This document shows, piece by piece, positions 4,353 to 41,603 of a DNA stretch of 41,603 nucleotides. Within the stretch, counting starts at the first letter, position 1, and the number at the start of each line of letters is the position of its first letter. The notes below the pieces were generated by a model that saw nothing but the letters and a program-made list of their open reading frames with translations, did not search any database and was not told the origin of the DNA. Source of the stretch: Chthoniobacterales bacterium (lineage in GTDB: Bacteria; Verrucomicrobiota; Verrucomicrobiia; Chthoniobacterales; UBA10450); NCBI GenBank assembly GCA_013815325.1, contig JACDGM010000031.1, forward strand, positions 1-41,603. The letters are read 5' to 3'. Both the position numbers and the translations under genes were made by a program.

Positions 4353-5335
4353 CGCCCGGCCTCGCTCTTAAAGATGGCGACGGCCTTGGAAATATCTTTT
4401 TTCATGGCGCCTTCCGAAGCAATCCGCTCGACGCCGTGGAGCTCGCCTAACGACGTCGCGGAAATGAAATCACCGCGCCAGACGAGAGTGGATGGACGAC
4501 CGCCAATCTCGACCGGCCACATCTGATAGAGAGTGAGCGCGACGTAGTAACCGCCGCTCGCGTAGTAGAGCCCGTCGGCCGCCTGATAGCCGCCCGATGT
4601 TCCCCGGGTGTAGGAAGCGCCGAGGGTGAGCACGCCTTCGTCCTCAACCGAGAGCAGCTCCCAATAAAGATCTGGCTTGAGAGAGCCTTTGCCGCCGATC
4701 AATCCGGTCGCGACCAGGAAAGCGCTGAACTGTTTATTGACCGGGCTTTGTTGCCTAACGAGTCCTGAAATTTCTTTTCCCGGCTGCACCGCGGCGCTGG
4801 TGTGGTCGTAGGGGGCCTCGGCGCGCGCGCCGCCCGCGGCGAAATCCTGCGCACGCTGCGCCAGCACTTCGGTCCAGACACTGAAGACTGGCTTGCCGCC
4901 GGAAAATTTCTGCGCCTCCGCACGGCTCAGCTGCAGTTCCGGCGACATTTTTTCGGTCGCGGCGACCAGGGCTTTCACGGCTGAATTGCTGGGCGGGTTT
5001 GTGAGTTTGGAAAAATTCGCAGCCGACGGAGAGCTGGGCAAATCGGAGTGCAGATAAACCTTCAACTCGCGATGGGCTGTCGGGTCGAACCGTTTCATGG
5101 TTTGCACGACTTGCGTGGGAGCTCTCGGAATGACGAAGCAGCTTTGCACTGAAAGATAACGCGGTGTGCTCATCGCCGCCCCGGCCGCGGTTTTGACCTG
5201 GCCGTTGGCTAACTGGCTGAGATCGATCTTTCCGAAAACGGAGAAGCTCGCCATCTCGCTCACCGGATCGGCGAGCGCGGCGGCGGGGATGAGGGTGAGA
5301 AGAAGGATAAACCGAAGGAGCGTGGAAACTTTCAT
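4349..5335 (-). CDS. Secreted protein of unknown function (copy A), coupled to barrel protein A
   Basis: About 328 residues starting MKVSTLLRFILLLTLIPAAA, a clear signal peptide with likely cleavage after ALA. An upstream open stretch to 5455 is ignored because it would bury the signal peptide and enter the divergent promoter region. Conserved landmarks shared with the paralogue at 7638-8702: LSVQSCFVIPRAP, DPTAHRE, an LxRAEAQKFS block, WTEVLAQRAQDFAAGG, APYDHTSAAVQPG, LVRQQSP, YWELLSVEDEGVLTLGA, LTLYQMWPV and VWRGDFIS. The W-P-V and W-x-x-x-F-x-S blocks near the end suggest a beta-rich domain. I do not recognise the family. Pairing with an outer-membrane barrel, twice in this window, points to a periplasmic or surface partner of that barrel. 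It is divergent from the ABC exporter gene at 5491. Confidence 0.75.
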   Translation of the reverse strand: MKVSTLLRFILLLTLIPAAALADPVSEMASFSVFGKIDLSQLANGQVKTAAGAAMSTPRYLSVQSCFVIPRAPTQVVQTMKRFDPTAHRELKVYLHSDLPSSPSAANFSKLTNPPSNSAVKALVAATEKMSPELQLSRAEAQKFSGGKPVFSVWTEVLAQRAQDFAAGGARAEAPYDHTSAAVQPGKEISGLVRQQSPVNKQFSAFLVATGLIGGKGSLKPDLYWELLSVEDEGVLTLGASYTRGTSGGYQAADGLYYASGGYYVALTLYQMWPVEIGGRPSTLVWRGDFISATSLGELHGVERIASEGAMKKDISKAVAIFKSEAGR

Positions 5336-5388
5336 GGGTGAATATGGTGTCAACGCAGGAAGCCATTTCGACCACCTGCACCTGCACA

Positions 5389-5436
5389 TTAACTTGCACT
5401 TACTCTCTTTTCCGGGGGAGTCAGGGTGTAAGTTAA
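5389..5436. promoter_or_regulatory. Possible operator: 11-bp inverted repeat between divergent genes
   Basis: TTAACTTGCAC at 5389-5399 and GTGTAAGTTAA at 5426-5436 are inverted copies matching at 10 of 11 positions, with centres about 37 bp apart. They lie in the 155-bp gap between the minus-strand secreted-protein gene (start 5335) and the plus-strand ABC exporter gene (start 5491). Direct CCTGCAC/CTGCACA repeats overlap the left arm. The gap is less GC-rich than the genes, as expected for divergent promoters. That a regulator binds here is inference. Confidence 0.4.
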
Positions 5437-5490
5437 AGCGAAAGTGTATGAGCAAGGAAGAAGTGCAAACCCAGTTTGTTTACGCCCGGC

Positions 5491-6444
5491 ATGAGTGAGC
5501 CCATTGTCTCGAGCAACCGCCTAACGAAAGTATTCGGCGAAGTGGCCGCGGTGCGCGATCTCTCGTTCGGCATCGGCCGGGGCGAGATTTTCGGATTTCT
5601 TGGCGCAAACGGCGCCGGCAAAACGACGACGATGCGAATGCTCTGCGGATTACTGCGGCCGACGTCCGGCAAGGCTACGATCGTGGGCGGCGATATTTGG
5701 CGGGATCGCTACGCCGTGCGGGCGAGATTCGGTTATATGGCGCAGAAATTCAGCCTATATCCGGACCTGACCGTGCTGGAGAACATGCGATTTTTCGCGG
5801 GGGCCTATGGGGTTCCGCCAAATAAAATGGAAGCGCGTATCAACCAGCTTCTGGTGCAGATGGACTTGGCGGAAAAACATCATACGCCCGCAGGCGAGCT
5901 CTCGGGCGGAATGCGCCAGCTACTCGCCCTCGGCTGCGCGCTGGTGCACGAGCCGCCGCTGCTTTTTCTCGACGAACCGACCTCGGGCCTCGACCCGGTG
6001 CATCGCCAGCAGATGTGGGATCTGCTCTACGATCTGGGCGACAGCGGCATCACCATTTTTGTCACGACCCACTACATGGATGAAGCGGAACGCTGCACGG
6101 ACGTCGGCTTCATCGACAAAGGCCGGCTCCTGGCCAAGGCTTCGCCGCGTGCCTTGATGGAAACATTCAAGGCAAAGTTGCTCGAGCTCGACGTCAAACC
6201 GCTCATGCCCGCACTCGTTAGGCTGCGCGAGCTGCCGGGCGTGCTCGGCGTCTCGCTGCGTAGCGGCAGCCTCCGCATCTATGCTCCCGAGGCGGAAAAG
6301 TTTTTGGCAGAATGGCAGGAGCACTGGCCATTCGATGAGCTGCAACTGACCGGCCATCGTTGGGCGGAGCCGGACATGGAAGACGTTTTTACCGCCTACT
6401 CGCAAGGTTACGACTCGATGTTGAACAAGGCCGCGCTCGCATGA
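5491..6444 (+). CDS. ABC-2 type exporter, ATP-binding subunit
   Basis: A 317-residue nucleotide-binding subunit. Walker A GANGAGKTT is at about residues 38-46, the Q-loop in YMAQKFSLYPDLTVLEN near 82-98, the signature LSGGMRQ at 137-143, Walker B LLFLDEP at 157-163 with the D-loop SGLD, and the switch histidine in VTTHYMDEAE. This is the CcmA/YbhF class that powers ABC-2 permeases for drug, polysaccharide or lipid export. About 100 extra C-terminal residues follow the core, as in YbhF-like proteins. ATG 5491 is used rather than TTG 5476 because it begins directly before the conserved strand VSSNRLTKVFG. Its stop overlaps the start of the permease (ATGA). One exact TCGTTAGGC-type word lies at 5519 and another at 6216. 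Substrate cannot be told. Confidence 0.9.
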   Translation: MSEPIVSSNRLTKVFGEVAAVRDLSFGIGRGEIFGFLGANGAGKTTTMRMLCGLLRPTSGKATIVGGDIWRDRYAVRARFGYMAQKFSLYPDLTVLENMRFFAGAYGVPPNKMEARINQLLVQMDLAEKHHTPAGELSGGMRQLLALGCALVHEPPLLFLDEPTSGLDPVHRQQMWDLLYDLGDSGITIFVTTHYMDEAERCTDVGFIDKGRLLAKASPRALMETFKAKLLELDVKPLMPALVRLRELPGVLGVSLRSGSLRIYAPEAEKFLAEWQEHWPFDELQLTGHRWAEPDMEDVFTAYSQGYDSMLNKAALA

Positions 6445-7628
6445 GAGGTCGTTTTAGTCCTCAAGCGGTCGGGAGCGTCGCGAAGAAGGAGTTCATCCAT
6501 ATCTATCGCGATTGGCGCATCCTTGTCCTCCTGCTCATTTTGCCACCGCTCTTTACCCTTCTTTTCGGGCACGCCTTTCAAAGCACTTCCTCGCGCGACG
6601 TGCCGGCGCTGCTCGAGAACGCGGACCACTCGCCACTCAGTGATATGTTCGTTAGGGAATTGCTCAAGGCCACGGCTTTCAAGTGGAAGCAAGGCAACGC
6701 GACGAGCGGCCAGCCCGATCTGCTCCGCGCCGGCGTGCGGGCGGCGCTCATCATCCCGGCCGGTTGGGGCGCGAGCTTGAAGAATGGCGACCCGCTGCCG
6801 TTGCCGCTCTATCTCGACGGCTCCGATACAAATACGGCGAGCGAACTGAAAGGCCGGGTGCAGGAAAGTCTCGGTGAGTTTCAAAAACAACAGCGCGACG
6901 AAATGGTGGGATCATTGCCCGAAGGAGTAATCGACCTGGCGAAGAAGCTACCGGTGGAAGTGCGCAAGGAATTCGTTTCGTCGATGACGCAGTGGGACGT
7001 CAAAGCGCACGTGCTCTATAACCCGGAAGAGCGTTTTATCGACTACGTGGTGCCGGGCGTGATCGGGATCATCCTACAGCTTCTCACCGTCACCCTGACT
7101 GCCTGCACGATCGCGCGCGAACGGGAATCGGGCACGCTCTTCCAACTGATGGTGACCTCGCTCCGGCGCAACGAGATCGTGATCGGGAAAATCATCCCTT
7201 ACCTCGCAATCTCGATTCTGCTCATCCTCGTCGTGATGGTGGTGGCTGGCTGGCATTTTCACGTTGCCTTCCACCAACCGTTCATGCTCGGCGTGATCTG
7301 CCTCCTTTTTCTCCTTTTCTCGTTAGGCCTGGGTTTGCTGGTTTCCGCTTTCTCGCGCACGCAGACTCAGGCCATCCAGCTCTCGGTTTTCTTTTTGCTC
7401 CCGGTCTTTGTCTTATCGGGCGCGTTCGCTCCGCTGGAGCAGCTGCCGGCCGTTATCCGCTATCTCTCGGAATTTTTCCCGCTAACGCATTTTTGCCGGG
7501 CCTTTCGCCTTGTGAATCTCTATCGGGCCGGCTTCAGCTTTTACGCCGGCGACCTCCTATTTCTGCTCGTCGGAGCGATCGTGACGTTCTTCGGCGCGGC
7601 GCTCCTGCTGAAACGCATCCAGGAGTAG
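6441..7628 (+). CDS. ABC-2 type exporter, permease subunit
   Basis: 395 residues with the ABC-2 permease plan: a short cytoplasmic N-terminus (VAKKEFIHIYRDWRIL), a first membrane helix (LVLLLILPPLFTLLFG), a large extracytoplasmic domain of about 180 residues, then five C-terminal helices beginning FIDYVVPGVIGIILQLLTV. The helices contain RERESGTLFQLMVTSLRRNEIVIGKI, the coupling region typical of YbhS/YbhR-like permeases. GTG/ATG choice: ATG 6441 overlaps the ATPase stop, so the two are co-translated. The gene ends 9 bases before the convergent stop of the minus-strand gene at 7638. No membrane-fusion protein gene is adjacent, but outer-membrane barrels flank the pair on both sides, so a role in moving something to the envelope surface is plausible though unproven. 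Confidence 0.9.
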   Translation: MRGRFSPQAVGSVAKKEFIHIYRDWRILVLLLILPPLFTLLFGHAFQSTSSRDVPALLENADHSPLSDMFVRELLKATAFKWKQGNATSGQPDLLRAGVRAALIIPAGWGASLKNGDPLPLPLYLDGSDTNTASELKGRVQESLGEFQKQQRDEMVGSLPEGVIDLAKKLPVEVRKEFVSSMTQWDVKAHVLYNPEERFIDYVVPGVIGIILQLLTVTLTACTIARERESGTLFQLMVTSLRRNEIVIGKIIPYLAISILLILVVMVVAGWHFHVAFHQPFMLGVICLLFLLFSLGLGLLVSAFSRTQTQAIQLSVFFLLPVFVLSGAFAPLEQLPAVIRYLSEFFPLTHFCRAFRLVNLYRAGFSFYAGDLLFLLVGAIVTFFGAALLLKRIQE

Positions 7629-7637
7629 CTCTAGGTC

Positions 7638-8702
7638 TCAGCGGCGCTTTTCGAAGCCAGCGCGAAAGGCTTTGATCGTCCGGATCGTTTCCCCGGTCAT
7701 TTGTTTGCCGGCTATGTAACGATCTGCGCCGCCGAGATAACTCCGGAAGGGCGCCGAGACGAAGCCCACCTGCCAAACAACCGTGCCGCCGTCGACGGGC
7801 CAGAGTTGGAAAAGATCCAACACCATGAAATAAGTGTCCGTGGGATAATAAACACAGTCGACCAACTGCCAGGAGTCACTTGCCTTGCGCGCCGCAAAGA
7901 CACCAAGCTGCAACGTAGTGTGGCCGCGCACTTGCGCCGTTTCCCAATAGCCGACCGCTTCGTCAGCCGCCGCGGAACCGTTGGCAAGCAATGGCCGGGC
8001 ACCGAGGATCGGCCGAAAATGTTTTGCGGCGGCAGGGTTGAGAGTCAGCAATCCGCGAAACTCCGAGCCGGGCGAGATGGATTGGTCGGCGCCGTAGGGT
8101 GCGACGGCGGAGATGCCACCCCTGGCCAAATCCTCGCTGCGCCGGCGGAGAATTTCTCCCCAGACATGGCTCGCCTGAGCTTCCCGCGCTTGCGCCGAAG
8201 CAGCGCCCTTTTTGGGAACGCCTGTGCGTATTAGCTCGACCTCGGAGGCAGTGAGATGCAAATCGCCGCCGGCGGCGCCATCCGCAATTAAATAAGTGTG
8301 ATCGAGCAGCCAGCGGTCGTTAGTCACACTAGCTGTTAGTCGTAATTTCTGAAAAGCCTCGTGCGCTGAAGCCATTTCGTATTCGCGGTACAGCCGGGTC
8401 TCCATCCCGGGATGTTTCGTCGGATCCCAGTGCAATAACTTCGCGCCCACTGTCGCTACCGGGGCGGGGATGAAGTAGCAGGATTCCAGGGATATCCCGC
8501 GTGAAAAATCGCCATCCGCGCCGCGCTGGGTGACGATCTCGCCGCCCTTCAACCTGGCTACATCAATCGGCGGTAGCGGAGAGAGCGACTTCAGCTCTTC
8601 CAGGGGACCGGCCTGCGCCCAACCGATCACAAGCAAACCGACGACGAACCCGCCGAAGCTTTTGCCTAACGACGGCGGCAACGTCCGGGCAAAGCGATCC
8701 AC
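7638..8702 (-). CDS. Secreted protein of unknown function (copy B), paralogue of copy A
   Basis: 354 residues. An N-terminal hydrophobic segment (FGGFVVGLLVIGWAQAG) is a signal peptide with a long basic lead; cleavage is likely after AQA. Landmarks are shared with the protein at 4349-5335: ISLESCYFIPAPV, DPTKHPGMETRLY, LTASEVELIRTG, VWGEILRRRSEDLARGG, VAPYGADQSISPG, YWETAQVRGHTTLQLG, MVLDLFQLWPVDGG and VVWQVGFVSAPF. The similarity is clear by eye but modest, so duplication is old. It lies 5 bases downstream of barrel gene B and presumably in one transcript with it, but the order barrel-then-secreted is the reverse of pair A. Function unknown. One exact CGTTAGGC-type word is at 8664. Confidence 0.75.
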   Translation of the reverse strand: MDRFARTLPPSLGKSFGGFVVGLLVIGWAQAGPLEELKSLSPLPPIDVARLKGGEIVTQRGADGDFSRGISLESCYFIPAPVATVGAKLLHWDPTKHPGMETRLYREYEMASAHEAFQKLRLTASVTNDRWLLDHTYLIADGAAGGDLHLTASEVELIRTGVPKKGAASAQAREAQASHVWGEILRRRSEDLARGGISAVAPYGADQSISPGSEFRGLLTLNPAAAKHFRPILGARPLLANGSAAADEAVGYWETAQVRGHTTLQLGVFAARKASDSWQLVDCVYYPTDTYFMVLDLFQLWPVDGGTVVWQVGFVSAPFRSYLGGADRYIAGKQMTGETIRTIKAFRAGFEKRR

Positions 8703-13098: not shown

Positions 13099-13168
13099 GC
13101 AAAAACATGCGCGTGCGCAAATGGAAATGCTGACGGGCGACGCGCTTGTTCTAGACGCCTCTTCCTCG

Positions 13169-13711
13169 TTAGGCGACGCTTAAGCGGAATCGCCCCTCCT
13201 TCGTCCGCTCCAGCAATCTCGTCAGATAGGAGATCGAATCAGACAACTCGATCAACTTCCCGAGTTCGTTAGGCCCGGTGCTTTTCCAATCGGAATCAAT
13301 CTGCCGCAGCCGGGCAATTTCCGTCTCATAGTTAGCGCGCAATTCTTCTTCCAGCTTCTCCAGTTTTTCCTCCAGCCTTGTCCGCGCTGGAAGCAAGATG
13401 GCGTGCGCGAGTTTGCTCGTGGCATTCCCATTCTTATGCAGCCAACTTTCCGTTTCGCGCAGAATCGTCCCGGTGTTCCAGAAGAGATCGGCCACCGCAG
13501 CCGGTACGGGCCGCCCGGCAGCGAGATCCGCGCCTTCCAATATGAGAAGATGATGCAGGCGCAGTTTCGGGTCGCTCAGAACGCGGAAGGCCTCGTTCAG
13601 CTCCGCGCCCGGCGGCTCCGCGCGGCTGCGCGCGAAATGTTTTTCCTTCAGTCTTTCCGGATCAAGCCAGGGCCGTCGCGCTTCGCCGAAGAGCGCGAAG
13701 TGGTCCGTCAT
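13169..13711 (-). CDS. hscB: HscB-like co-chaperone of iron-sulfur assembly, J-domain lacking HPD
   Basis: 180 residues. N-terminal part resembles the HscB J-domain (HFALFGEARRPWLDPERLKEKHF, ELNEAFRVLSDPKLRLHHLLILEG) and the rest resembles the HscB C-terminal three-helix bundle (LRETESWLHK, ARTRLEEKLEKLEEELRANYE). In functional J-proteins an HPD triplet between helices II and III stimulates the Hsp70 partner HscA; here the place reads KHFARSRAEPPG, without HPD. So either it no longer stimulates an Hsp70 or acts only as scaffold binder. It overlaps the start of the IscA-like gene stop by 4 bases (13708-13711), which supports the iron-sulfur role. No HscA or IscU gene lies in the window. Confidence 0.7.
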   Translation of the reverse strand: MTDHFALFGEARRPWLDPERLKEKHFARSRAEPPGAELNEAFRVLSDPKLRLHHLLILEGADLAAGRPVPAAVADLFWNTGTILRETESWLHKNGNATSKLAHAILLPARTRLEEKLEKLEEELRANYETEIARLRQIDSDWKSTGPNELGKLIELSDSISYLTRLLERTKEGRFRLSVA

Positions 13712-14097: not shown

Positions 14098-15081
14098 TTA
14101 CGCCGCTTCGAGGCAGGTTGCCAGATGCGCCTGCGCAATTTCCGTGATCTCGCCTAACGTCGAGACGTGCTGGAATTTTTCGCGCAGCATTTTGCTCGCC
14201 GGCATTCCCTTGGAATAAGCCATTAATCGGCCGCGCATCGAGCGCATGGCGAGGTCTTCGATGCCGCATTCCGCCACCGCCAGCTCGCAATGCCGCTGGA
14301 TCAATCCCCATTTTTCGGCCGGCTCTGGCGGCGGGACCAACTCACCGGTCGCGAGGTAACGTTTCGTCTGCGCGAAAATCCAGGGCGAGCTCATGGCCGC
14401 GCGTCCAATCATCGCGCCGGCGATCCCAGATTCATGGCGCCGCTGCGCCACGTCGGCCGCGCTGAAGAGATCCCCGTTGCCAATCACCGGAATGGAAACC
14501 GCGTTCACGACCTGCCCGATCACATCCCAATCGGCCGCGCCGGAATAACCCTGGGCGCGGGTGCGCCCATGCACTGCGATGGCGGCGATGCCTAACGATT
14601 CCAAAATCTTCGCCACCTGCGGCGCGTTGATCGTCCCCTCGTCCCAACCGGTGCGGATTTTGGCGGTGACCGGCAACGGGGCAACGGCCCTAACGACGGC
14701 TTCGACAACTTTGCCTAACGTCGGGCAATCCTTGAGCAGGGCGGAGCCGCCGTTTTTCGCGACCACCTTGTTCACCGGACAACCGAAATTGAGGTCGATA
14801 AAATCCGGCTCCACCCAATCGACCACCTGCCTCGCCGCTTCCGCCATGTGCTCCGCATTTCCGCCAAAAAGCTGCACCCCGATCGGTCGCTCGCTCGCGT
14901 CGAACGCGAGATAACCGCGCGTCCGTTCGTTCCGCCGAAAAACGCCTTCGGCGGAGACAAATTCCGTCACGAGCACATCGGCCCCGCGCTCTTTGCAGAG
15001 CTGGCGGAAGATCATGTCCGACACGCCCGCCATGGGCGCGAGGTAGAGGGGAAAGGAGCCGTTAGAGAACCACGGGAGCAT
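14098..15081 (-). CDS. dusB: tRNA-dihydrouridine synthase, DusB type
   Basis: 327 residues from ATG 15081; the frame continues to 15135, but the family begins with LYLAPMAGVSD shortly after a short lead. Reduces uridine to dihydrouridine in tRNA with FMN and NAD(P)H. Hallmarks: APMAGVSD (FMN binding), DFIDLNFGCPVNKVV with the catalytic Cys, KNGGSALLKD, VTAKIRTGWD, VHGRTRAQGYSG, PVIGNGDLFS and IGRAAMSSPWIF. Length is normal. Three exact GCCTAACG-type words (14152, 14590, 14713) lie within it, more than in most neighbours. Downstream genes are IscA-like and HscB-like; Dus enzymes use no cluster, so the link is probably only shared transcription. Confidence 0.93.
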   Translation of the reverse strand: MLPWFSNGSFPLYLAPMAGVSDMIFRQLCKERGADVLVTEFVSAEGVFRRNERTRGYLAFDASERPIGVQLFGGNAEHMAEAARQVVDWVEPDFIDLNFGCPVNKVVAKNGGSALLKDCPTLGKVVEAVVRAVAPLPVTAKIRTGWDEGTINAPQVAKILESLGIAAIAVHGRTRAQGYSGAADWDVIGQVVNAVSIPVIGNGDLFSAADVAQRRHESGIAGAMIGRAAMSSPWIFAQTKRYLATGELVPPPEPAEKWGLIQRHCELAVAECGIEDLAMRSMRGRLMAYSKGMPASKMLREKFQHVSTLGEITEIAQAHLATCLEAA

Positions 15082-15777: not shown

Positions 15778-16922
15778 TGTGCGAGAAAATTACGCCAGAG
15801 CGTCGCCGGATTAAAGCTCGGGGCCTCGCGATTCGTCGCGCGCAGGCGGAGGAGGTAGAGCCCGATGATGAGAAAAATGAGATTCGGCGCCCAGGCGGCG
15901 GCGAGGGGCGAGATGCGGTCGCCCTCCCCGAGTGCGAGAAAAAGATGGGTCAGGAAATTCATCGAAAAAACGAGCACAATCGCGGCCGCGACACTCGAAA
16001 GAATCCCGCGGCGAGAAAAGCCGATCCCGAGCGGCGTCGCCATAATCGCGACGACGAAACAAGTCCAGGGAAGCGCCCAACGATACTCCAACTGCGTGCG
16101 GAAAGGCGCGAGGAGAGCCTCCGGAAAATCCGAGTTGAAGTGGAGGTATTCGCGCAGCTCGGAGATGCCGAGGAACTCCGGACGGACGTTCGCGCTGCTC
16201 AGCCGGTAGGGCGTTTCGCTCCAGCCATCGATCGTTAGGGCGCGCTCCATTTTCTCGCTCGTGATGTTGCCTGCCTGATCGTAGTTCACCACTTTCGCCT
16301 GCCCCAGCCGCCAGGTTTTGTGCGCCGGATCGAAGGAGGCTTCACTCGCGAGATAATTGCGCACGATATTTTGATCCTCATCCTGCTGCACGATTTGCAG
16401 GCCGCTGAATTGATTCGAGCCGGGGCGAAAACGCGCGATGAACCAGGTGCGATCATCGGTCCGGTTCCGGAAAACCTGTCCGTTGATCACGAGGTCGCGC
16501 GGCCCGCCACGGCTGATCTCGTCGAAGAAAACTTTTCTCGCCCGTTCGGCGTGCGCCGCGAGCGAGTAATTGAGAGCAAAGGTGACGCCTGTCGTGAGCA
16601 GGCCGATCAGGAGCAAGGGCAACGCGACACGCGGCACGCTCACGCCCGCCGTGAGCATGGAGACGATTTCGTTCGCGCGCGACATTCGGCCTAACGAAAA
16701 GAGAAGCGCGAGCAGGAGCGAGACGGGCAGGAGAACGACGAGGACCTCGGGAATTTGGCCGACGTAAAACTGCAGAACTCCGAGCAGCGGCGTGCGTTGA
16801 TCGAAGATTAGAGAGCTGTTGTCGCTGATATCGAATATCAGCCAAATCGCGAGGAAGCCGAGAATGCAGTAGGCAAAGGGCTGGAGAAAGTTTCGGATGA
16901 TGTAGCGGTCGAGAAGCCTCAT
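15774..16922 (-). CDS. LptF/LptG family lipopolysaccharide export permease
   Basis: 382 residues with the LptF/G layout: an N-terminal signature LLDRYIIRNFLQPFAYCILGF, three membrane helices, SRANEIVSMLTAGVSVPRVALPLL (the cytoplasmic coupling helix motif), a periplasmic beta-jellyroll region (about 130-280), and three C-terminal helices ending LIFLIIGLYLLRL. With LptB2 ATPase it extracts LPS from the inner membrane and feeds it to LptC-A-D. The partner permease and the ATPase are not in the window. F and G cannot be told apart by eye. The gene is divergent from dinG, with a 103-bp inverted-repeat element in between. Confidence 0.9.
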   Translation of the reverse strand: MRLLDRYIIRNFLQPFAYCILGFLAIWLIFDISDNSSLIFDQRTPLLGVLQFYVGQIPEVLVVLLPVSLLLALLFSLGRMSRANEIVSMLTAGVSVPRVALPLLLIGLLTTGVTFALNYSLAAHAERARKVFFDEISRGGPRDLVINGQVFRNRTDDRTWFIARFRPGSNQFSGLQIVQQDEDQNIVRNYLASEASFDPAHKTWRLGQAKVVNYDQAGNITSEKMERALTIDGWSETPYRLSSANVRPEFLGISELREYLHFNSDFPEALLAPFRTQLEYRWALPWTCFVVAIMATPLGIGFSRRGILSSVAAAIVLVFSMNFLTHLFLALGEGDRISPLAAAWAPNLIFLIIGLYLLRLRATNREAPSFNPATLWRNFLAQ

Positions 16923-16988
16923 GTAGGAAGGAAACCCGCAGTTGGAATAGCGAAACTCCTCGTTAGGCAGACGGCATCACGCCCATTT

Positions 16989-22277: not shown

Positions 22278-22310
22278 CGCGCGTACACCATCCGATGCCA
22301 TCGCCTAACG

Positions 22311-25523: not shown

Positions 25524-25556
25524 CGATTCGTTAGGCGGACCGCCGCATTAAACTTT

Positions 25557-30121: not shown

Positions 30122-31519
30122 TCATTTCGGCATGTGCAGCCGCAGGTAGGAGAGCAGATCGGTGCGCGTGATTAGACCGAGGAATTTATCGCCCTCCATC
30201 ACAATCGCGACCCGGCCGCGATCGAACACGCCTAACAAGTCGGAGATGTTCGCCGCGGGCGAGAGGGTTTCGAGCCGGTCGGTCATGGCCGACTGCACAA
30301 GGTCGTTGAATTTCGCCGGCTCGCGATGCACTTTCAGGAGGAGATCCGATTCATCGATAATCCCAACGGCGCGGCCTTCGCCATTGAGTACCGGCAATTG
30401 CGAGACATCGGCCGCACGCATCCGCTTGAACGCGGTCAGAACGGTGTCGTTAGGCCCGACGGAAATGACCTCGCCCCTTTCGTAGCGATGGGAGATGAGG
30501 TCGCGCAGGTCGCCTTTGCTCGGCCGCTCCACGAAGCCTTGTTCCGCCATCCAAAAATCGTTGTACATCTTCGAGAGATATTTATTCCCGGTGTCGCAGA
30601 CGAAGGTGACGACGCGCTTTCTTTCCGTCTGCTTCCGGCAATAACGGAGCGCGCCGCCGAGGAGCGTGCCGGTGGAGGAACCGCCCAAGATTCCTTCCCT
30701 CGCTAGAAGCTCGCGCGCGACTGCGAAGCTTTCCGTGTCGTCGATCTCAAAAGCGTCGCGCACGAGCGACATGTCGGCGTTGTCGGGGACAAAGTCCTCG
30801 CCGATTCCTTCAACGGCCCAACTCCCCGCTTCCTCCAACTGGCCTTTCTTGACCCACTCATAGAGAATGGAGCCAGTCGGGTCGGCCAGGATCATCTCGA
30901 GTTTCGGTTGCACTTTTTTAAAGAACCGGCCGAGACCGGTCAGTGTGCCGCCGGAGCCGACGCCGATCACCACCGCGTCGACGTCGTGATTCATCTGCTC
31001 CCAAATCTCCGGCCCGGTGCCGCGCTCATGGGCGAGAGGATTAGCCGGATTGCCGAACTGGTTGGCGTAAAAGGCGCCCGGAATTTCTGCGGTCAAGCGC
31101 GCGGCGACGTCCTGATAATATTCAGGATGCCCGCGCATCACGTCGCTCCTCGTTAGGCGAACTTCCGCCCCGAGCGCGCGGACGTGGGCGATTTTCTCCT
31201 GCGACATCTTGTCGGGGATGACGAGGATGATCCGGTAACCTTTCGCGCCCGCGATGAGAGCGAGGCCGAGGCCGGTGTTGCCCGCGGTCGCTTCGATCAC
31301 GGTGCCGCCGGGCTTAAGGTTTCCCTCGCGCTCCGCGGCCTCGATCATGGCGAGCGCGACGCGGTCCTTGATCGAGCCGGTCGGGTTCTGATTTTCCAAC
31401 TTCACGAAAAGCTGGCATGGCCCGGTATCCATCCGCGTGATCTCGACCAGCGGTGTGTTCCCGATGAGGGAGAGGATGGCGGGCGGTTTGTTAGGCGAAG
31501 TAGGCGGCGAGCTGGTCAT
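30122..31519 (-). CDS. cbs: Cystathionine beta-synthase with C-terminal CBS pair
   Basis: About 465 residues from ATG 31519 (an upstream frame to 31582 is less likely). Joins serine and homocysteine to cystathionine. PLP domain: IGNTPLVEI, the PLP lysine in ENQNPTGSIKDRVAL, EATAGNTGLGLALIAG, GVGSGGTLTGLGRFF, and the phosphate loop GGSSTGTLLG. After residue about 345 two CBS modules follow (SVGPNDTVLTAFKRMRAADVSQLPVL and MTDRLETLSPAANISDLLGVF), the regulatory nucleotide/AdoMet sensor. No haem-binding N-terminus of the animal enzyme. Paired with the gamma-lyase/synthase gene downstream on the same strand. Confidence 0.9.
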   Translation of the reverse strand: MTSSPPTSPNKPPAILSLIGNTPLVEITRMDTGPCQLFVKLENQNPTGSIKDRVALAMIEAAEREGNLKPGGTVIEATAGNTGLGLALIAGAKGYRIILVIPDKMSQEKIAHVRALGAEVRLTRSDVMRGHPEYYQDVAARLTAEIPGAFYANQFGNPANPLAHERGTGPEIWEQMNHDVDAVVIGVGSGGTLTGLGRFFKKVQPKLEMILADPTGSILYEWVKKGQLEEAGSWAVEGIGEDFVPDNADMSLVRDAFEIDDTESFAVARELLAREGILGGSSTGTLLGGALRYCRKQTERKRVVTFVCDTGNKYLSKMYNDFWMAEQGFVERPSKGDLRDLISHRYERGEVISVGPNDTVLTAFKRMRAADVSQLPVLNGEGRAVGIIDESDLLLKVHREPAKFNDLVQSAMTDRLETLSPAANISDLLGVFDRGRVAIVMEGDKFLGLITRTDLLSYLRLHMPK

Positions 31520-31614: not shown

Positions 31615-32388
31615 ATGAACGCTTTGCACCGCTTCGTCACCTTCCTCCTCCTCGCGTGCGCGCCCTGCCTAACGAAGGCGCGCGCGGAAGATCCGCTTCA
31701 GGCGCAGAGCGAGGATTTGTTTCCGCTCCCACTCGACGGCGCGGTCACGCTCGAGAACGGCGGCGGCTCTTTCCACATCTTCGGCTGGTACGAGCCGCGC
31801 GTGCGGCTGGTGGCCTTGCGCAAGGCTTACACCGCGGCGCGCCTCGAGCAGATCCGCATCGAGAAAAAAGCTGAGCCCGCGGCGCTCGCCGTGCGCACGA
31901 TCATTCCGCCCGCGAAAGGTTTTTTCGCCGATCGCTCCGGCACCGTCGAATACACCGTCACGGTTCCGGAGACGGCGCATCTGAAGATCAAACTGGGGGC
32001 CGGCGAAATAACCCTCCAAGGTTTGCGCGGCGGTCGCGCCGAAATCGAGCTGACGAATGGCCGGATCATCGCGCTCAATTGTTACGCCCAAGTGCGGGCG
32101 CATTCCGTCAATGGTGTCGCGGAAGCCTTCTACGAATGGTGGGAAAATCTTCCGGCGAAGTTCGATTACGTGCTCCAACACGGGAGAATCGGGGCGCGTC
32201 TTCCGGCGACCGCGCAGTTCCGCGTCGATGCGCAGACCGCGAATGGCCGCATCGGCAATGGTTTCAATTTTACGCCCCAGACCGAGGGCGACGGTCAGTC
32301 GCTGGAAGCGGCGACGCGGAAGGACGCGCCGCTTGCGTTTCATTTCCGCACTGGCGGTGGCAATATCAGCATCGACAGCTTTCGTTAG
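31615..32388 (+). CDS. Secreted beta-helix-like protein (DUF4097-type)
   Basis: 257 residues with a signal peptide (MNALHRFVTFLLLACAPCL, cleavage near ARA). The mature part is beta-rich with repeating G-x-I/N-G-R turns: LENGGGSFHIFGWYE, KLGAGEITLQGLRGGRAEIELTNGRI, HSVNGVAEAFY, QTANGRIGNGFNF, TGGGNISIDSF. This is the spacing of DUF4097/DUF4098 adhesin-like beta-helices, which are exported but of unknown function. The stop TAG lies inside the exact TCGTTAGGC word at 32382-32390 (CGT TAG), so the signature word ends the gene. 18 bases before yajQ. Divergent from the cbs-type gene. Confidence 0.7.
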   Translation: MNALHRFVTFLLLACAPCLTKARAEDPLQAQSEDLFPLPLDGAVTLENGGGSFHIFGWYEPRVRLVALRKAYTAARLEQIRIEKKAEPAALAVRTIIPPAKGFFADRSGTVEYTVTVPETAHLKIKLGAGEITLQGLRGGRAEIELTNGRIIALNCYAQVRAHSVNGVAEAFYEWWENLPAKFDYVLQHGRIGARLPATAQFRVDAQTANGRIGNGFNFTPQTEGDGQSLEAATRKDAPLAFHFRTGGGNISIDSFR

Positions 32389-32406
32389 GCGCGGAAACAT
32401 CAAGGC

Positions 32407-34012: not shown

Positions 34013-36148
34013 ATGGTAATTAATTCGATGGATCGCCTGCGCCGTCTTGCACCTGCACTCTGGCTCGTCGCGCTGCTCGCGTGCCCGGCCGGTGTGCGAG
34101 CGCAAAAGTTTGACGGCAAGGAATTGGTCCAGGCCAGTCTGGTTTCCGATACGGCAACCGTGGTGCCCGGACAACCCTTCACAGCGGGTTTGCTCCTGAA
34201 GATGGCGCCCGGCTGGCACACTTATTGGCAGTATCCGGGTGATGCGGGCATCCCGACCGAGATCAAATGGAATCTGCCGTCGGGTTGGAAAGCGGCATCT
34301 ATTCAGTGGCCGATCCCGCTCAAATTAACCGAGCCGGGCGACATCCAGATTTACGGTTATCACGACGAGGTGCTGCTCATGATGCAGCTCACGCCGCCGG
34401 CCAAGATCGCGAAAAAATCTGTGCATCTCTCCGCGGACGTCGACTGGCTCGTCTGCGAAAAGGTCTGCATCCCTGGCAGCGGCAAGGTCCAGCTGGATCT
34501 GCCAGTTGGTGATTCGCCCGTGCCGGCGAATCAGGCGCTGTTCGAGAAATCTCGCGAACAACTGCCGCGGGCCTTGCCTAACGAGTCAGGCGCGGCGCTG
34601 CGCTGGAGCCGCACGGCGCAGAATTTTCGCCTAACGATCGTGGATAAGAATCTCGCGCGAAAGCCTTCGCTCGACTTTTTTCCCTTGCCCGAGACCGCGA
34701 CGGTGATCGGTCATCCGCGGCGCGAGCAGGCGAACGATGGCTCGGTTGTTTTTGCCATTCCCATCGAAGCGGCCGATCAGAGTTTGCAGTCGCTTGCTGG
34801 TTTCCTTGTCTTCGATCACCAAGCATGGTCGTTAGGCACGAACACTTCGGGCGCGCCCGCGGCCAAGGCCGCGTCCGTTTCGGCGCAATCAGGAGGACTC
34901 CTCAAGTTTCTCCTCTTCGGTTTCATCGGCGGATTCATTCTTAATCTCATGCCGTGCGTCCTACCGGTAATCTCGCTTAAAATTTTCGGTTTCATTCAGC
35001 ACGCCGGCGACGATCGCCGCAAGATTTTCGGCAATGGTCTCGCCTTTGCGGCGGGCATCTTCGCCTGGTTCATCGCCCTCGCGCTCCTCATGATCGGATT
35101 GAAGGCCGCGGGCCATCAAATCACCTGGGCGTTTCAATTTACCAACCCGTTTTTCGTCGTCGCGATGAGCGCGGTGGTGCTCGTCTTCGCGCTCAATCTC
35201 TTCGGCGTTTTCGAGATCACGCTCTCCGCCCGCGCCACCACCGGGTTGCTCGGCTGGAGCGCGCGCGAAGGTTACGTCGGCTCGTTTTCCCAGGGCGTTT
35301 TCGCGACTGTCCTCGCCACGCCCTGCACCGCGCCGTTTCTCGGGAGCGCGCTCGGTTTTGCCTTCGCGGCTTCGGCGGGCGTGATCCTGCTCATGTTCTT
35401 CGCGATCGCCGCGGGCATGAGCGCGCCTTATTTGCTGCTCACCGCGCAGCCCGCGTGGCTCCGTTTTCTGCCCCGACCCGGTGCCTGGATGGTGGCCGTA
35501 AAACAGTTCATGGGTTTCCTGCTCATCGCGACGCTCCTCTTTCTGCTTTGGGTACTCGGGGCGGAGCGCGGGCCGGAGGCAATGATCTGGACCTGCGCAT
35601 TCCTGCTCGCGCTCAGCTTGGCCTGCTGGATGAAAGGCTCATTCCTCGTGCCGGGTGTTTCGTTCGCCAGACGCTCTCTCGTCCTCGTCCTCATGCTCGT
35701 GCTCGTGATTGGCAGCGGTTATTATTTCATCGGCGAAAAATTCAGCGCCACCAAAACCGCCTCCCTTAGCCTAACGACAAGCGACTGGATTCCCTTCACT
35801 CCCGAGCGCCTGCAAAGCGAGCTCGCCCAGGGCCACACCGTCTTCCTCGATTTCACCGCCGCCTGGTGCATCACCTGTAAGTTCAACGAATCTTCCGTCC
35901 TCGAAAGCGCCGCGGTAAAAGGTGCTTTCGAGCGCGCCGGCGTGGTGAAAATGAAAGCCGATTGGACGAACGCCGATCCCGTGGTCACAAAAACTTTGCA
36001 ACAATTCGGGCGCGTCGGTGTCCCACTCTACGTGCTCTATCCGGCGGCGGCGCCCAACCAACCGATCGTCCTGCCGGAGCTGCTCACCCAGGCGCTCGTC
36101 CTGAATCACCTGCAAACCGCCGCGCCGAAAGTCGCGGCCGCTCCCTAA
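34013..36148 (+). CDS. DsbD/ScsB-like thiol:disulfide interchange protein
   Basis: 711 residues. Moves electrons from cytoplasm to periplasmic thiol proteins. Signal peptide (LRRLAPALWLVALLACPAG), an N-terminal DsbD-alpha-like domain with DWLVCEKVCIPG (Cys pair), then an eight-helix membrane domain with the two conserved cysteine motifs LNLMPCVLPVISLK and TPCTAPFLGSALGF, and a C-terminal thioredoxin domain (DFTAAWCITCKFNE, CxxC as CITC). All six cysteines are visible, so the relay looks complete. ATG 34013 is used; ATG 34028 is as likely. Exact signature words at 34576, 34629, 34830 and 35769. The following redoxin gene starts 5 bases after its stop. Confidence 0.9.
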   Translation: MVINSMDRLRRLAPALWLVALLACPAGVRAQKFDGKELVQASLVSDTATVVPGQPFTAGLLLKMAPGWHTYWQYPGDAGIPTEIKWNLPSGWKAASIQWPIPLKLTEPGDIQIYGYHDEVLLMMQLTPPAKIAKKSVHLSADVDWLVCEKVCIPGSGKVQLDLPVGDSPVPANQALFEKSREQLPRALPNESGAALRWSRTAQNFRLTIVDKNLARKPSLDFFPLPETATVIGHPRREQANDGSVVFAIPIEAADQSLQSLAGFLVFDHQAWSLGTNTSGAPAAKAASVSAQSGGLLKFLLFGFIGGFILNLMPCVLPVISLKIFGFIQHAGDDRRKIFGNGLAFAAGIFAWFIALALLMIGLKAAGHQITWAFQFTNPFFVVAMSAVVLVFALNLFGVFEITLSARATTGLLGWSAREGYVGSFSQGVFATVLATPCTAPFLGSALGFAFAASAGVILLMFFAIAAGMSAPYLLLTAQPAWLRFLPRPGAWMVAVKQFMGFLLIATLLFLLWVLGAERGPEAMIWTCAFLLALSLACWMKGSFLVPGVSFARRSLVLVLMLVLVIGSGYYFIGEKFSATKTASLSLTTSDWIPFTPERLQSELAQGHTVFLDFTAAWCITCKFNESSVLESAAVKGAFERAGVVKMKADWTNADPVVTKTLQQFGRVGVPLYVLYPAAAPNQPIVLPELLTQALVLNHLQTAAPKVAAAP

Positions 36149-36153: not shown

Positions 36154-36765
36154 ATGAAAACAAAACTCCTGCTCGTCAGCCTAACGACAATCTGCGCCGG
36201 GGCGTTCTGCGCCGCCGAAGCGCCCAGGGTCGGCGCGCCCGCGCCCGGGTTTGCGCTCACCGATTCCCACGGCGAAGCGCGCTCGTTAGGCGAATTCAAG
36301 GGCAAATACGTCGTCCTCGAATGGTTCAACCCGGGCTGCCCCTTCGTGCAAAAGCACTACAAGAGCGAGAACATGCAGCAGCTGCAGAAACTGTTTACCG
36401 GCAAGGACGTGGTCTGGCTGACGATCGATTCGGGGGCGCCGGGAAATGAAGGCAGCCTCACGCCCGCGCAAGCGAACAGGCAGATTGTCGATTGGAAGAT
36501 GAACCCGACCGCATTGCTGCTCGATCCGGAGGGCAAAGTTGGGCACGAGTATGCGGCCACGAACACGCCCCACATGTTTGTCATCGATCCGGGCGGGAAG
36601 CTGCTTTATTCCGGTGCGATCGACAGCAAGCCGACGGCCGATCCAAACGACATCAAAAGCGCGACCAACTACGTAAAGGTCGCGCTCGATGAAGCGATGG
36701 CCGGCAAGCCGGTGACGACGCCGAACTCGCGCGCCTACGGGTGCTCGATCAAATATAGTCGTTAG
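36154..36765 (+). CDS. Thioredoxin-like redoxin (AhpC/TSA-Redoxin type), exported
   Basis: 203 residues from ATG 36154; signal peptide KLLLVSLTTICAGAFCAA. Family landmarks: GAPAPGFALTDSHGEARSLGEFKGKYVVLEWFNPGCPFVQKHY (in pieces), with the single active cysteine in PGCPFVQKHY, plus NTPHMFVIDPGG. One conserved Cys near the active site, and a second near the end in YGCSIKY. Likely partner and substrate of the DsbD-like reductase upstream (gap 5 bases). The exact TCGTTAGGC word spans its stop codon (CGT TAG). Role: peroxide or disulfide handling in the periplasm, not provable here. Confidence 0.85.
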   Translation: MKTKLLLVSLTTICAGAFCAAEAPRVGAPAPGFALTDSHGEARSLGEFKGKYVVLEWFNPGCPFVQKHYKSENMQQLQKLFTGKDVVWLTIDSGAPGNEGSLTPAQANRQIVDWKMNPTALLLDPEGKVGHEYAATNTPHMFVIDPGGKLLYSGAIDSKPTADPNDIKSATNYVKVALDEAMAGKPVTTPNSRAYGCSIKYSR

Positions 36766-36777
36766 GCCAGGCTTCGG

Positions 36778-36882: not shown

Positions 36883-37674
36883 TTTCGCGCTGAAGCGGCT
36901 TGCGAGTCGCAGCACCGCGAGCGGCGTCAGCCTAACGATGGCCATCCCGATCTTCATCGCTACTCCGGGAACGACGATCGCTCGTCCCGCTTCAATCCCG
37001 CGCAGCGCCGCGGCGACCACCTCCTCGACCGACACATAAACCATCGCCGGGCCGAGCCTCGCGTCGCCCTGTTCTTCCCGCTGCGCGACTTCGGTGAACT
37101 CCGTGCGCACCGGCCCGGGGCAGAGCGCGGTCACGTCCACGCCGGCTCCGCGCAGCTCGCTCCGCAACGCTTCTGAAAAACTCGTGACGTAAGCTTTCGT
37201 CGCTGCATAGACGGCGAAATTCGCCATTGGCAGAAAGCTCGCCGAAGAGCTGACGTTCAGGATCGCGCCCCGCTTTTGCGCGATCATCGCCGGCAGCAGA
37301 CCGCGCGTCAGCCGCGTCAACGCCACCACGTTTACCAGCTGCATCCGGTCGAGCTTCTCCGGGTCCGCCGTGGCAAAGGCGCCGAGATCTCCGAGACCGG
37401 CGTTGTTGATGAGCAAATCGATCGCCGGCACTCGATCGTTAGCCCACGCGAGCAGTTCATCGACCTGATCGTGTTGCGCGAGATCGGTTTGCCGAATCTC
37501 GAGGCACAGTTGCGGATGCTGAGCGCGCAATTCCGCGCGCAATTCTTCCAACCGGTTTTGCCGTCGCGCTACGAGCAGCAACGTTGCCGCGCGGCCCGCC
37601 AGTTGTCGCGCAAACTCGCGGCCGATCCCGGCCGAAGCGCCCGTCACCAGTGCGTGACAGCCTTCCAGTCGCAT
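36877..37674 (-). CDS. SDR-family NAD(P)-dependent oxidoreductase
   Basis: 265 residues, a classical short-chain dehydrogenase/reductase. TGASAGIGREFA is the NAD(P) loop, DLLINNAGLGDLG is the NNAG motif, NVSSSASFLPMANFAVYAATKAYV (in pieces) includes catalytic Ser and Y-x-x-x-K (YAATK). LCPGPVRTEF follows the fold. A hydrophobic C-terminus (MKIGMAIVRLTPLAVLRLASRF) may tether it to the membrane. The substrate is not predictable. Convergent with the redoxin gene and 6 bases from the tesA-type gene on the same strand. Confidence 0.9.
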   Translation of the reverse strand: MRLEGCHALVTGASAGIGREFARQLAGRAATLLLVARRQNRLEELRAELRAQHPQLCLEIRQTDLAQHDQVDELLAWANDRVPAIDLLINNAGLGDLGAFATADPEKLDRMQLVNVVALTRLTRGLLPAMIAQKRGAILNVSSSASFLPMANFAVYAATKAYVTSFSEALRSELRGAGVDVTALCPGPVRTEFTEVAQREEQGDARLGPAMVYVSVEEVVAAALRGIEAGRAIVVPGVAMKIGMAIVRLTPLAVLRLASRFSAKT

Positions 37675-37680
37675 CTTCGC

Positions 37681-38307: not shown

Positions 38308-38357
38308 GCGCGTCCGGTTCCCATCGCGTAAGCAAGACGCGCCGCCAGCCCCCGTCA

Positions 38358-39032: not shown

Positions 39033-39081
39033 GAAATCCTCAGCCTAACGACGCGCCGGGCACGATGCGCCCACCTCATTT

Positions 39082-39244
39082 GTTACCCCGATGCGCCGGA
39101 GGACGGAGAGGGACCTCTCCCATGCAATCAACGTCTTCGGCTGAAGAGGAAACGCAGATTGCAGTTGGGAGGTTTGAAAGCCCGGCCTCGTCCGCTGCGC
39201 GGACTGCGTTACGGCTCTCCGCGCTTCGCCGGATCGGGATGACA
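39082..39244. repeat. GTTACCC...GGATGAC inverted-repeat element, about 163 bp
   Basis: Left end GTTACCCCGATGCGCCGG-AGGACGGAGAG is an imperfect inverted copy of GTTACGGCTCTCCGCGCTTCGCCGGATCGGGATGAC (in pieces) at the right. Same end family as 25557-25937. It lies between ybbA and ybbP, stretching a normally tight gene pair to 271 bp; the remaining part of the gap has nothing else. GCCTAACG occurs at 39043 just before it. Confidence 0.65.
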
Positions 39245-39303
39245 AGTCGAGGCGGGTCGGCAACAAGCGGAGTTTGCTCGGCAAGATCGCAAAATCATCC
39301 ACG

Positions 39304-41603
39304 ATGAACCGCCCCACCAACAACCTTTCCTTTATTCCTCGCATGGCGTGGCGCGACAGCCGGTCGAGCCGGCGCCGGCTTCTGCTTTTTTCCATCTCGA
39401 TTTCGTTAGGCGTGGCCGCGCTCGTCGCGATCGGGCTTTTTCGCGCGAGCCTTTCACAGGCGATCGACGACCAGGCGCGGGCGCTCCTCGGTGCGGACCT
39501 GGTCGTGGAAAGTTCGCGGCCTTTCACCGCGGAGCAGGAGCAAATGCTGCGTTCGTTAGGCGAAACTCAGGCGCGCGAGGTCCGCTTCCGCACCATGGCG
39601 CTCTTCCCGAAAACGGGCGGAACGCGGCTCGTGCACGTGCGCGCCTTGGGCGGGAATTTTCCTTTCTACGGCAAGATGGAGACGGCGCCGCCCGCCGCCG
39701 CGCAGAGCTTCCGCAACGGTGGGAAAGCGGTCCCCGAAGAGAGCCTGCTTCTGCAATTTCGAGTGAAGGCCGGAGATCCGATCAAGATCGGCGACGCAAC
39801 TTTCACAATCGCCGGCGCGCTCACGAAGATGCCGGGAGAAGCCTCGCCGGCCGCGAGCTTCGCTCCGCGCGTTTACATTCCGCTGCAAAATCTCGCGCAA
39901 ACGAACCTGCTTAAACCGGGGAGTCTCGCGCGCTATCTAAACTTCGTGAAGTTCGCGCCCGGCACCGATGTCGCGGCTGAAGTGGCGAAGCTCGCGCCGC
40001 AAATCGAGCACGCCGCGCTCGAATACGACACGGTCGCGAAACGGAAAAAGGACCTCGACGAAGCGCTCGATAATCTTTACCGGTTCCTCAATCTTGTCGG
40101 CTTCATCGCGCTCCTCCTCGGCGCCGTCGGGGTGGCGAGCGCGATCCAGGCGCACCTGCAACAGAAGGTGCGGACCGCGGCGGTGCTGCGCTGTCTTGGC
40201 GCCGCCGGAAGAATGACTGTGGCGATTTACCTTCTGCAGGCGATCGCGCTCGGTGTGGTCGGCGCGGCCGCAGGCGCGGCGCTTGGCCTAACGATGCACC
40301 AGCTTCTGCCCAGCACGCTGCAAAGATATATTCCGTTCACGCTCCCCACCGCGATCGCGTGGACGCCGGTTTTGCGCGGGATGGGGCTCGGCGTGGCCGT
40401 CTGCATTCTCTTCGCGCTCCCGCCGCTGCTCCGCCTCCGGAGGGTTTCTCCGTTGCTCACGCTTCGTGCCTCGGTCGACGAAAATTCCGGGCCGGTGTCA
40501 CCCGATTTTGCGGTCTGGGGCGTTTACTTTTTGATCGGGCTCAGCCTCACGGCGTTTGCGATTTCGCAGGCAGAAAGATGGAGCGACGGGCTCTTCATCG
40601 CGGGCGGTCTCGGCCTGGCCGTGCTGGTGCTGATGGCGGTGGCCAAGTTCTTGATTTTTCTGGTGCGCAAACTTCTCCCGCAGAGCTGGAGCTTCGTTCT
40701 CCGCCAGGGCCTGGCGAATCTCCATCGGCCAAACAACCGCACCTTGCTTCTCACATTGTCGTTAGGCTTGGGGACGTTCCTGCTCCTCACCATTTACCTG
40801 ACGCGCGATGTACTCCTGGCCCAGTTCACCTCGATCGACGCGCAGAGCCAGCCGAACATTTTTCTTTTCGACATTCAACCCGCTCAGACGAAGGCGGTCG
40901 CCGATCTCGTTAGGCAAACGGGACTACCGGTCATTCAGCAGGCGCCGATCGTAACCATGCGGCTGGTGGAAGTGAAAGGGCGCAAGTCGACGGACATCCT
41001 CAAGGATCCGCAGCGGAAAGCGCCGGAGTGGGAATTGGAACGGGAATATCGTTCGACCTATCGCGACGCCATGAGCGAGACGGAGAAGCTCACCGCGGGT
41101 CAGTGGATCGGCCATCTCGATTACCACCCGGGAGACACGGTTCCGGTCTCGGTGGAACAGGATATCGCGAAGGACCTTGGCCTAACGATTGGCGACAAGC
41201 TCGTTTTCGACGTCCAAGGCGTGCCGATCAAGGCGCGGGTGGCGAGCCTGCGCGAGGTCGATTGGAAACGCTTTCAAACCAATTTCTTCATCGTCTTTCC
41301 AACCGGTGTGCTGGAAAAAGCGCCAACTTTCAACGTGCTCGTGAGTCGCGTACCGACGCCGGCGGCCTCGGCGCGATTGCAGAATGCGGTCGTCGCAAAA
41401 TTTCCGAACGTTTCCGCGATTGATCTCACTTCCATCATTCAAACCGTCGATTCCATCCTAACGAAAGTAGCACTCGTCATCCGCCTCATGTCGCTCTTCG
41501 TCGTTGGGACTGGCTTGATCGTGCTCGGGAGCACGATCTGGAGCGGGCGTTATCAGCGGCTAAAGGAGAGTGTGCTCCTACGCACGTTAGGCGCGTCGCG
41601 GCT
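39304..41603 (+). CDS. ybbP: YbbP-like ABC transporter permease (3' end outside window)
   Basis: At least 766 residues, truncated by the window end. ATG 39304 begins MNRPTNNLSFIPRMAWRDSR, then a first membrane helix (LLLFSISISLGVAALVAI). A large extracytoplasmic MacB-core-like domain with DDQARALLGADLVVESSRPF follows, then three helices near 250-360, a further helical pair, then a second periplasmic domain and the start of the last helix group (IRLMSLFVVGTGLIVLG). This is the two-domain FtsX/YbbP architecture, suggested to extract hydrophobic molecules from the inner membrane. Seven exact signature words lie in it (39404, 39554, 40286, 40760, 40908, 41180, 41585), usually read as SLG, LVR or LT. 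Confidence 0.9.
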   Translation, partial: MNRPTNNLSFIPRMAWRDSRSSRRRLLLFSISISLGVAALVAIGLFRASLSQAIDDQARALLGADLVVESSRPFTAEQEQMLRSLGETQAREVRFRTMALFPKTGGTRLVHVRALGGNFPFYGKMETAPPAAAQSFRNGGKAVPEESLLLQFRVKAGDPIKIGDATFTIAGALTKMPGEASPAASFAPRVYIPLQNLAQTNLLKPGSLARYLNFVKFAPGTDVAAEVAKLAPQIEHAALEYDTVAKRKKDLDEALDNLYRFLNLVGFIALLLGAVGVASAIQAHLQQKVRTAAVLRCLGAAGRMTVAIYLLQAIALGVVGAAAGAALGLTMHQLLPSTLQRYIPFTLPTAIAWTPVLRGMGLGVAVCILFALPPLLRLRRVSPLLTLRASVDENSGPVSPDFAVWGVYFLIGLSLTAFAISQAERWSDGLFIAGGLGLAVLVLMAVAKFLIFLVRKLLPQSWSFVLRQGLANLHRPNNRTLLLTLSLGLGTFLLLTIYLTRDVLLAQFTSIDAQSQPNIFLFDIQPAQTKAVADLVRQTGLPVIQQAPIVTMRLVEVKGRKSTDILKDPQRKAPEWELEREYRSTYRDAMSETEKLTAGQWIGHLDYHPGDTVPVSVEQDIAKDLGLTIGDKLVFDVQGVPIKARVASLREVDWKRFQTNFFIVFPTGVLEKAPTFNVLVSRVPTPAASARLQNAVVAKFPNVSAIDLTSIIQTVDSILTKVALVIRLMSLFVVGTGLIVLGSTIWSGRYQRLKESVLLRTLGASR

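Follow-up and report, generated by a model that had tools for sequence, protein, structure and literature searches.

What does the nine-letter word TCGTTAGGC (word A) do in a bacterial genome that carries it by the thousand? The question is raised by a stretch of 41,603 nt from a Chthoniobacterales bacterium (contig JACDGM010000031.1, assembly GCA_013815325.1), referred to here as the window, and we addressed it in the window, in the rest of the same genome, and in 213 genomes of the order Chthoniobacterales, with one genome per species. Genome totals come from a word search over all contigs, and sequence-level work covered about 12% of the window's own genome. From these sequence data we consider word A to be a genome-wide word and probably a DNA uptake sequence of one Chthoniobacterales family. 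We favor this reading because there are thousands of exact copies without a shared orientation, because the word is conserved at the DNA level and scarce in an acquired-looking island, because sister clades carry words of their own, and because competence-type genes are present. An uptake-type or other genome-wide recognition word had already been proposed in a sequence-only reading of the window, and the counts, orientation, and conservation described below support that proposal.

Word A occurs 50 times in the window (25 copies on each strand), while in 100 dinucleotide-preserving shuffles it averaged 0.16 copies and never exceeded 1. The core CGTTAGGC is present 57 times, with T as the ninth base in 50 of these, and TCGTTAGG is present 58 times. 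The sequence-only reading had described a massive over-representation on both strands, and this was borne out, as was the balanced orientation (given there as 28/28 for the cores). Its tally of 56 cores, 49 of them sharing the ninth base, was slightly low, and the word begins earlier than the position 4445 it had named, with a first copy at 3956. The whole assembly (209 contigs, 4.15 Mb, 94% complete) contains 1323 + 1431 = 2754 copies, compared with 32 + 34 = 66 for the reversed word used as a control, and 252 kb of this genome contained 200 copies against a second-order Markov expectation of 1.6. The enrichment is therefore not local, and duplication within the window is ruled out as its source; neither a count near the Markov expectation nor a confinement to the window, the two outcomes that would have spoken against the original claim, was found. 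At 1.2 per kb, the window exceeds the average density of the genome, 0.66 per kb. When copies were aligned, the information formed a nine-letter block, flanked by a weak purine preference at positions 11–12 (0.24 and 0.10 bits) and by no more than 0.07 bits at the remaining flank positions. Single-letter deviations fall mainly at positions 1, 2, 8, and 9, and the middle of the word is almost invariant.

Genes were called in 472 kb of the genome using a home-made codon-model caller. Of 353 copies, 276 lie in genes, 54 are intergenic, and 23 are at boundaries, corresponding to 0.73 per kb of coding and 0.81 per kb of non-coding sequence. Two of the six reading frames through the word contain stops, and no copy lies in them; the genic copies are divided among the remaining four (82, 76, 59, and 59), which encode the peptides SLG, VR, LT, and PN. 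There is a mild bias toward the reversed orientation relative to the gene (158 vs. 118). Neighboring copies do not share a strand, with 162 of 336 adjacent pairs alike in orientation; orientation was among the checks that the sequence-only reading had asked for.

The word is conserved between species, and the conservation follows the DNA. We aligned pieces of the genome to four congeners (genus g1, the window's own genus; pieces about 71–87% identical). In a first test, 55 of 88 words were kept exactly, compared with 14.2% of all 9-mers. In an enlarged test, 86 of 123 pairwise comparisons (70%) were identical vs. 14000 of 99594 other 9-mers, although these comparisons depend on one another, and some of the agreement could come from parallel gain or from transfer between species. 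The 73 sites compared include 63 that were kept in at least one congener, and 6 of 8 non-coding words were kept. Third codon positions were identical in 299 of 341 cases within words and in 18379 of 31296 outside. Rare codons behaved likewise: AGG was kept in 27/30 cases within words and 8/53 outside, CTA in 28/37 and 18/81, and TTA in 14/18 and 32/91, with GGC being the only one of nine tested codons without a clear difference (p 0.054). Words hold a sizeable share of these rare codons (TTA 12.3%, AGG 16.5%, CTA 15.4%). The constraint acts on the DNA word, not on the protein. Conservation in orthologues, which the sequence-only reading had named as a check, was thus found well above the 14% background.

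Word A is sparse in some parts of the genome. Its density per 10 kb tracks GC content (Spearman 0.71, 39 bins). The largest word-poor stretch, at 5–36 kb of contig C55, contains one word in 31 kb, has a GC content of 0.54–0.56, and has codon scores about half the average. Six of eight genes tested there matched families, namely two asparagine synthases, a glycosyltransferase, Wzz, DegT, and an oxidoreductase. A 12 kb part of the stretch gave one 140-base match in one congener and none in three others; positions 21.3–33.0 kb of the window were found, in pieces, in all four. The C55 stretch, which looks like an acquired low-GC polysaccharide island, is a single case.

The spread of word A among related genomes, another check named beforehand, proved to be limited to the family. 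The 83 family genomes contain 19–4605 copies and all but one of them (G145, with 19) exceed 30, while the 130 genomes from other families of the order contain 0–30. All five genomes of g1 (the window's own and its four congeners) have 1410–4605 copies, G005 (genus g2) has 2147, and G014 (g11) has 1802; the other 76 family genomes have 19–587. Few words were seen at 80 dnaE2 loci of named genomes, at one locus per genome, and de novo word counts outside the family covered about 4–60 kb per genome, so that sparse words would escape them. Outside the family, G038 (C7:94047-96651) and G075 (C173:4285-6254) hold rows of TCGTTAGGC, mostly on the same strand and spaced by about 500 bp, that resemble integron cassette arrays.

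Sister branches within the family carry different words, and this is the most informative part of the analysis and one that goes beyond the sequence-only reading. De novo counting in 60 kb of G014 found 103 copies of AAGATCGACA (word B). Over whole genomes, word B occurs 74–4653 times in genera g5, g6, g9, g11, g12, g13, and g14, 9–85 times in the remaining family genera (g4 being highest, so that the ranges touch), and 0–46 times outside the family. In its longer form word B reads AAGATCGACA(A/T), its flanks are biased, and it is nearly without one-letter variants in G014. That genome carries both words (A 1802, B 4653) at about 0.7 and 1.8 per kb, respectively, spread evenly over the 160 kb analyzed (A 1–7 and B 4–14 per 5 kb, with a variance below the mean). 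Word B is denser there between genes (4.36 vs. 1.57 per kb), whereas word A is not. A third word, CGTACTC(A/G) (word C), was found in G019 of genus g4, with 38 exact copies of CGTACTCA in 89 kb. The whole genome has 935 copies of CGTACTCA vs. 21–49 in its ten congeners and 9–76 in other family genomes; the 0–126 copies outside the family are possible by chance for an 8-letter word. When aligned by CG, the words read TCG-TTAGGC (A), TCG-ATCTT (B as its reverse complement), and CG-TACTCR (C), with T preceding CG in 17 of 40 copies of word C. A common anchor of the three words is possible but weak. As a separate observation, CGTACTCA has zero copies in 17 of the 213 genomes, and in six non-family genomes without it (G079, G085, G087, G094, G042, G131) its reversed control occurs 52–128 times, perhaps reflecting avoidance of GTAC through restriction. 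What looked like further words in L076, L098, and L112 proved to be repeats of local origin.

To place these words, we used a single-gene tree of 25 family and 5 other genomes, in which g2, g9, and g10 are absent and some nodes are weak (41–65), and a dnaE2 tree (FastTree, one gene, given without support values). Of the closest proteins to the window's dnaE2, most of those with a named source carry the name Chthoniobacterales or Verrucomicrobiota. In the dnaE2 tree, the isolate Candidatus Udaeobacter AEW3, which came from the scan of named genomes, falls inside the window's family beside a g5 genome. In the first tree, genus g1 is the first branch among the placed family genomes, with a support of 81 for the remaining group, and the B-rich genera that can be placed (g5, g6, g11–g14) form one clade with a support of 100, within which G014 lies. 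The dialects thus follow the phylogeny as far as the first tree reaches, with word B highest in one clade and word C standing out in one species. The residual excess of word A over other families, seen in 82 of 83 family genomes, fits an ancestral word A. The order of word replacement that we infer shares the limits of the first tree.

Genes for competence were found widely. ComEC is present in 53 of 58 genomes, including 35 of 37 in the family (both family genomes lacking it are 78–80% complete), and the PilT family in 36 of 37 genomes searched, including all 24 in the family. The window's own genome encodes two adjacent PilT-family ATPases above cut-off and a ComEC homologue that passes the ComEC N-terminal model and falls below the full ComEC/Rec2 equivalog cut-off. 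HHH_3 (ComEA-type) domains were detected in 20 of 37 genomes, 17 of them over cut-off. A scan for prepilin motifs in 21 loci around PilT-family, ComEC, and ComEA-like genes turned up nothing in word-A genomes that resembled a pilin convincingly, and ten gene neighbors in the window's own genome included no pilus genes by Pfam. The same scan found two proteins with prepilin-type N-termini near a PilT-family gene of the B-word genome G016 (L193:837-1247 and L193:4583-5230); the other motif matches were unrelated proteins. The HHH_3 hit of G003 lies in a 294-residue protein (L196:9699-10583) with a nuclease-like part and a ComEA-like helix-hairpin-helix end, both below curated cut-offs.

If word A is an uptake sequence, the words would likely be passwords by which cells recognize DNA of their own kind and import it. 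A receptor specific for the word, which we predict to be a minor pilin, would sit on a retractile type IV pilus and bind free DNA bearing the word; retraction by the PilT family would pull this DNA in, ComEC would pass one strand inwards, and homologous recombination would exchange it for the allele already present. Preferential uptake of word-bearing fragments would let the word accumulate and would maintain it at its sites. With a change in receptor specificity, a new word would begin to build up as the old one is lost, which would explain AAGATCGACA or CGTACTCA in sister branches and two words in one genome. A fuller account, which we regard as tentative and give somewhat less than even odds, is that the family runs a self-recognizing transformation in which the password is replaced outright rather than edited letter by letter as in Neisseria. 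On this account TCGTTAGGC is old, AAGATCGACA(A/T) arose once in the Udaeobacter clade, CGTACTC(A/G) arose in only one species, and G014 is bilingual, with two unrelated words and hence probably two receptors.

Two known systems offer a comparison. The DNA uptake sequences (DUS) of Neisseriaceae are words of about 10 letters with 943–5918 copies per genome and dialects by clade, and Simonsiella muelleri has two dialects at once, just one letter apart (PMC3630211). DUS are mostly intergenic; 71% of aligned DUS are exactly conserved in all genomes, and they are lacking in gained and lost regions (PMC2397512). The words described here are similar in their range of copy number, their division by clade, the single genome with two words, and the 70% pairwise conservation. 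They differ in phylum, in that word A is not mainly intergenic, in that G014 combines two unrelated words, and in that DUS dialects vary by few letters round a fixed CTG while A, B, and C have only CG in common. The DUS receptor is the minor pilin ComP; here, uptake through such a receptor is a prediction. The uptake signal sequences (USS) of Pasteurellaceae have a 9-letter core, AAGTGCGGT, followed by less conserved downstream flanks, and GCGG is retained as a core across USS types (PMC12616744). The core length is the same as that of word A, and the weak purines at positions 11–12 of A and the biased flanks of B are reminiscent of it, but the sequence is unrelated and word A has no long AT-rich flanks. 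The receptor in Pasteurellaceae is predicted to be ComN.

Several findings weigh against uptake. No member of the family is known here to be transformable, and no word-specific receptor was identified in the approximately 12% of the genome that was read, with no search for minor pilins by protein family. HHH_3 is over cut-off in only 9 of 24 family genomes and sub-threshold in the window's own genome. ComEC and PilT-family genes also occur in the word-free families of the order and therefore cannot explain the distribution of the word; they would be necessary parts of the system rather than the cause of the word, and the competence genes that the sequence-only reading had suggested looking for are accordingly present but not specific to word-bearing genomes. 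Low-count family genomes show no excess over the reversed control (G145, 19 vs. 56; G016, 60 vs. 79), although this control is imperfect, as word A includes stop triplets that its reversed form lacks. The other families are the better baseline because word A is mostly far rarer there than the control. Close inverted pairs that serve as terminators are said to be frequent among known uptake words, a feature that is common but not essential, and such close pairs are few here, with 6 of 336 adjacent pairs starting within 45 bp; within 60 bp, 160 kb of G014 contained 8 inverted pairs of word B and no pair of word A. Some word-poor DNA does not look foreign: several stretches have ordinary codon usage, and a 4.5 kb gap in the window (8.7–13.2 kb) spans lexA and an RNase HII gene. 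Finally, A, B, and C share little beyond CG, while published dialects keep a fixed inner core (PMC3630211).

The alternative that survives best, though we judge it unlikely, resembles HIP1 (highly iterated palindrome 1) of cyanobacteria, where a DNA methyltransferase or sequence-biased repair would make and preserve a word that plays no part in uptake. HIP1 is likewise a very frequent short word, it is replaced by other words in some cyanobacteria, and its one-letter deviations lean to the ends as those of word A do, but HIP words are palindromic and linked with methyltransferases (PMC4390886), and none of A, B, and C is a palindrome. Biased repair should also act in the low-GC island, which is nearly word-free, although a recent arrival of the island could explain that.

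There is a slim chance that the word is a binding site of a chromosome-organizing, replication, or recombination protein of the Chi, KOPS, or matS type, with which the thousands of scattered exact copies, and their conservation from species to species, would agree. The random orientation of neighbors and the balance over contigs (1323/1431) speak against a Chi or KOPS word, and on these data, which come from contigs only, a polar word was rejected, although the contigs are short, L024 is skewed (3 vs. 14), and there is the mild gene bias described above. To our knowledge, words of these types rarely differ completely between sister genera. Remnants or recombination sites of mobile elements are very improbable. 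Word A contains GTTAGGC, the core of integron attC boxes, and the same-strand rows of G038 and G075 lie outside the family at cassette-like spacing, but within the family the flat flanks, genic copies in four frames, mixed orientation, and scarcity in the acquired-looking island led us to reject integron boxes, with no dedicated attC search. A by-product of codon or peptide usage, suggested by the 78% of copies that are coding, has next to no probability, as it is contradicted by the about equal encoding of four peptides, an equally high non-coding density, and the retention within words of rare TTA, AGG, and CTA codons that are mostly lost outside.

The uptake reading, if true, would add a third case in another phylum, and uptake words would then have evolved at least three times. 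Among the open-licence papers listed, titles and abstract openings include no report of uptake words outside Neisseriaceae and Pasteurellaceae, so that these, if they act in uptake, would be the first outside those two families; the papers listed for TCGTTAGGC itself are unrelated, judging by their titles. The uptake reading would also point to gene exchange that is frequent and biased toward kin, in bacteria that are represented here mostly by metagenome-assembled genomes and belong to a soil family that includes relatives of Udaeobacter, whose most enriched genomes have about a thousand to several thousand word copies. A series of sister genomes in which the word is old, new, private, or double would allow tests of how such words originate, spread, and are replaced.

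All copies of TCGTTAGGC in the window are exact matches. On the forward strand, they lie at 6215–6223, 7320–7328, 13166–13174, 13266–13274, 16960–16968, 17581–17589, 18700–18708, 19284–19292, 21481–21489, 23836–23844, 24874–24882, 25528–25536, 27015–27023, 28101–28109, 29159–29167, 30447–30455, 31150–31158, 32382–32390, 34829–34837, 36283–36291, 36759–36767, 39403–39411, 39553–39561, 40759–40767, and 40907–40915. Those on the reverse strand lie at 3956–3964 (the copy ahead of the start given earlier), 4445–4453, 4753–4761, 5519–5527, 8664–8672, 14590–14598, 16689–16697, 21059–21067, 21977–21985, 22303–22311, 22510–22518, 23077–23085, 24925–24933, 26365–26373, 28673–28681, 28916–28924, 31667–31675, 34576–34584, 34629–34637, 35769–35777, 36179–36187, 36930–36938, 39043–39051, 40286–40294, and 41180–41188.

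Other repeated sequences were encountered along the way. A dispersed repeat of about 150 bp, at approximately 22677–22838 of the window, matches on both strands in many copies and is found in all five g1 genomes; it lies in frame within dnaE2 (22311–25523), at about residues 123–176, a stretch that several relatives do not have. The 12-mer TCGGGATGACAA with its neighbors occurs five times in the window, and CTCGGGATGA is also frequent in g4 genomes. In parts of G038 (family f3; L144, L145, L146), TGTTAG forms dense clusters on both strands, from which no clean longer word emerged. The pair GAGCAG/CTGCTC is about two-fold over-represented in 252 kb of the window's own genome (333 vs. 160 expected) and may be a Chi-like word. 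In L087, from a more distant Verrucomicrobium with 70% GC, CCTCGACGA occurs nine times in 12.8 kb, dispersed over both strands.

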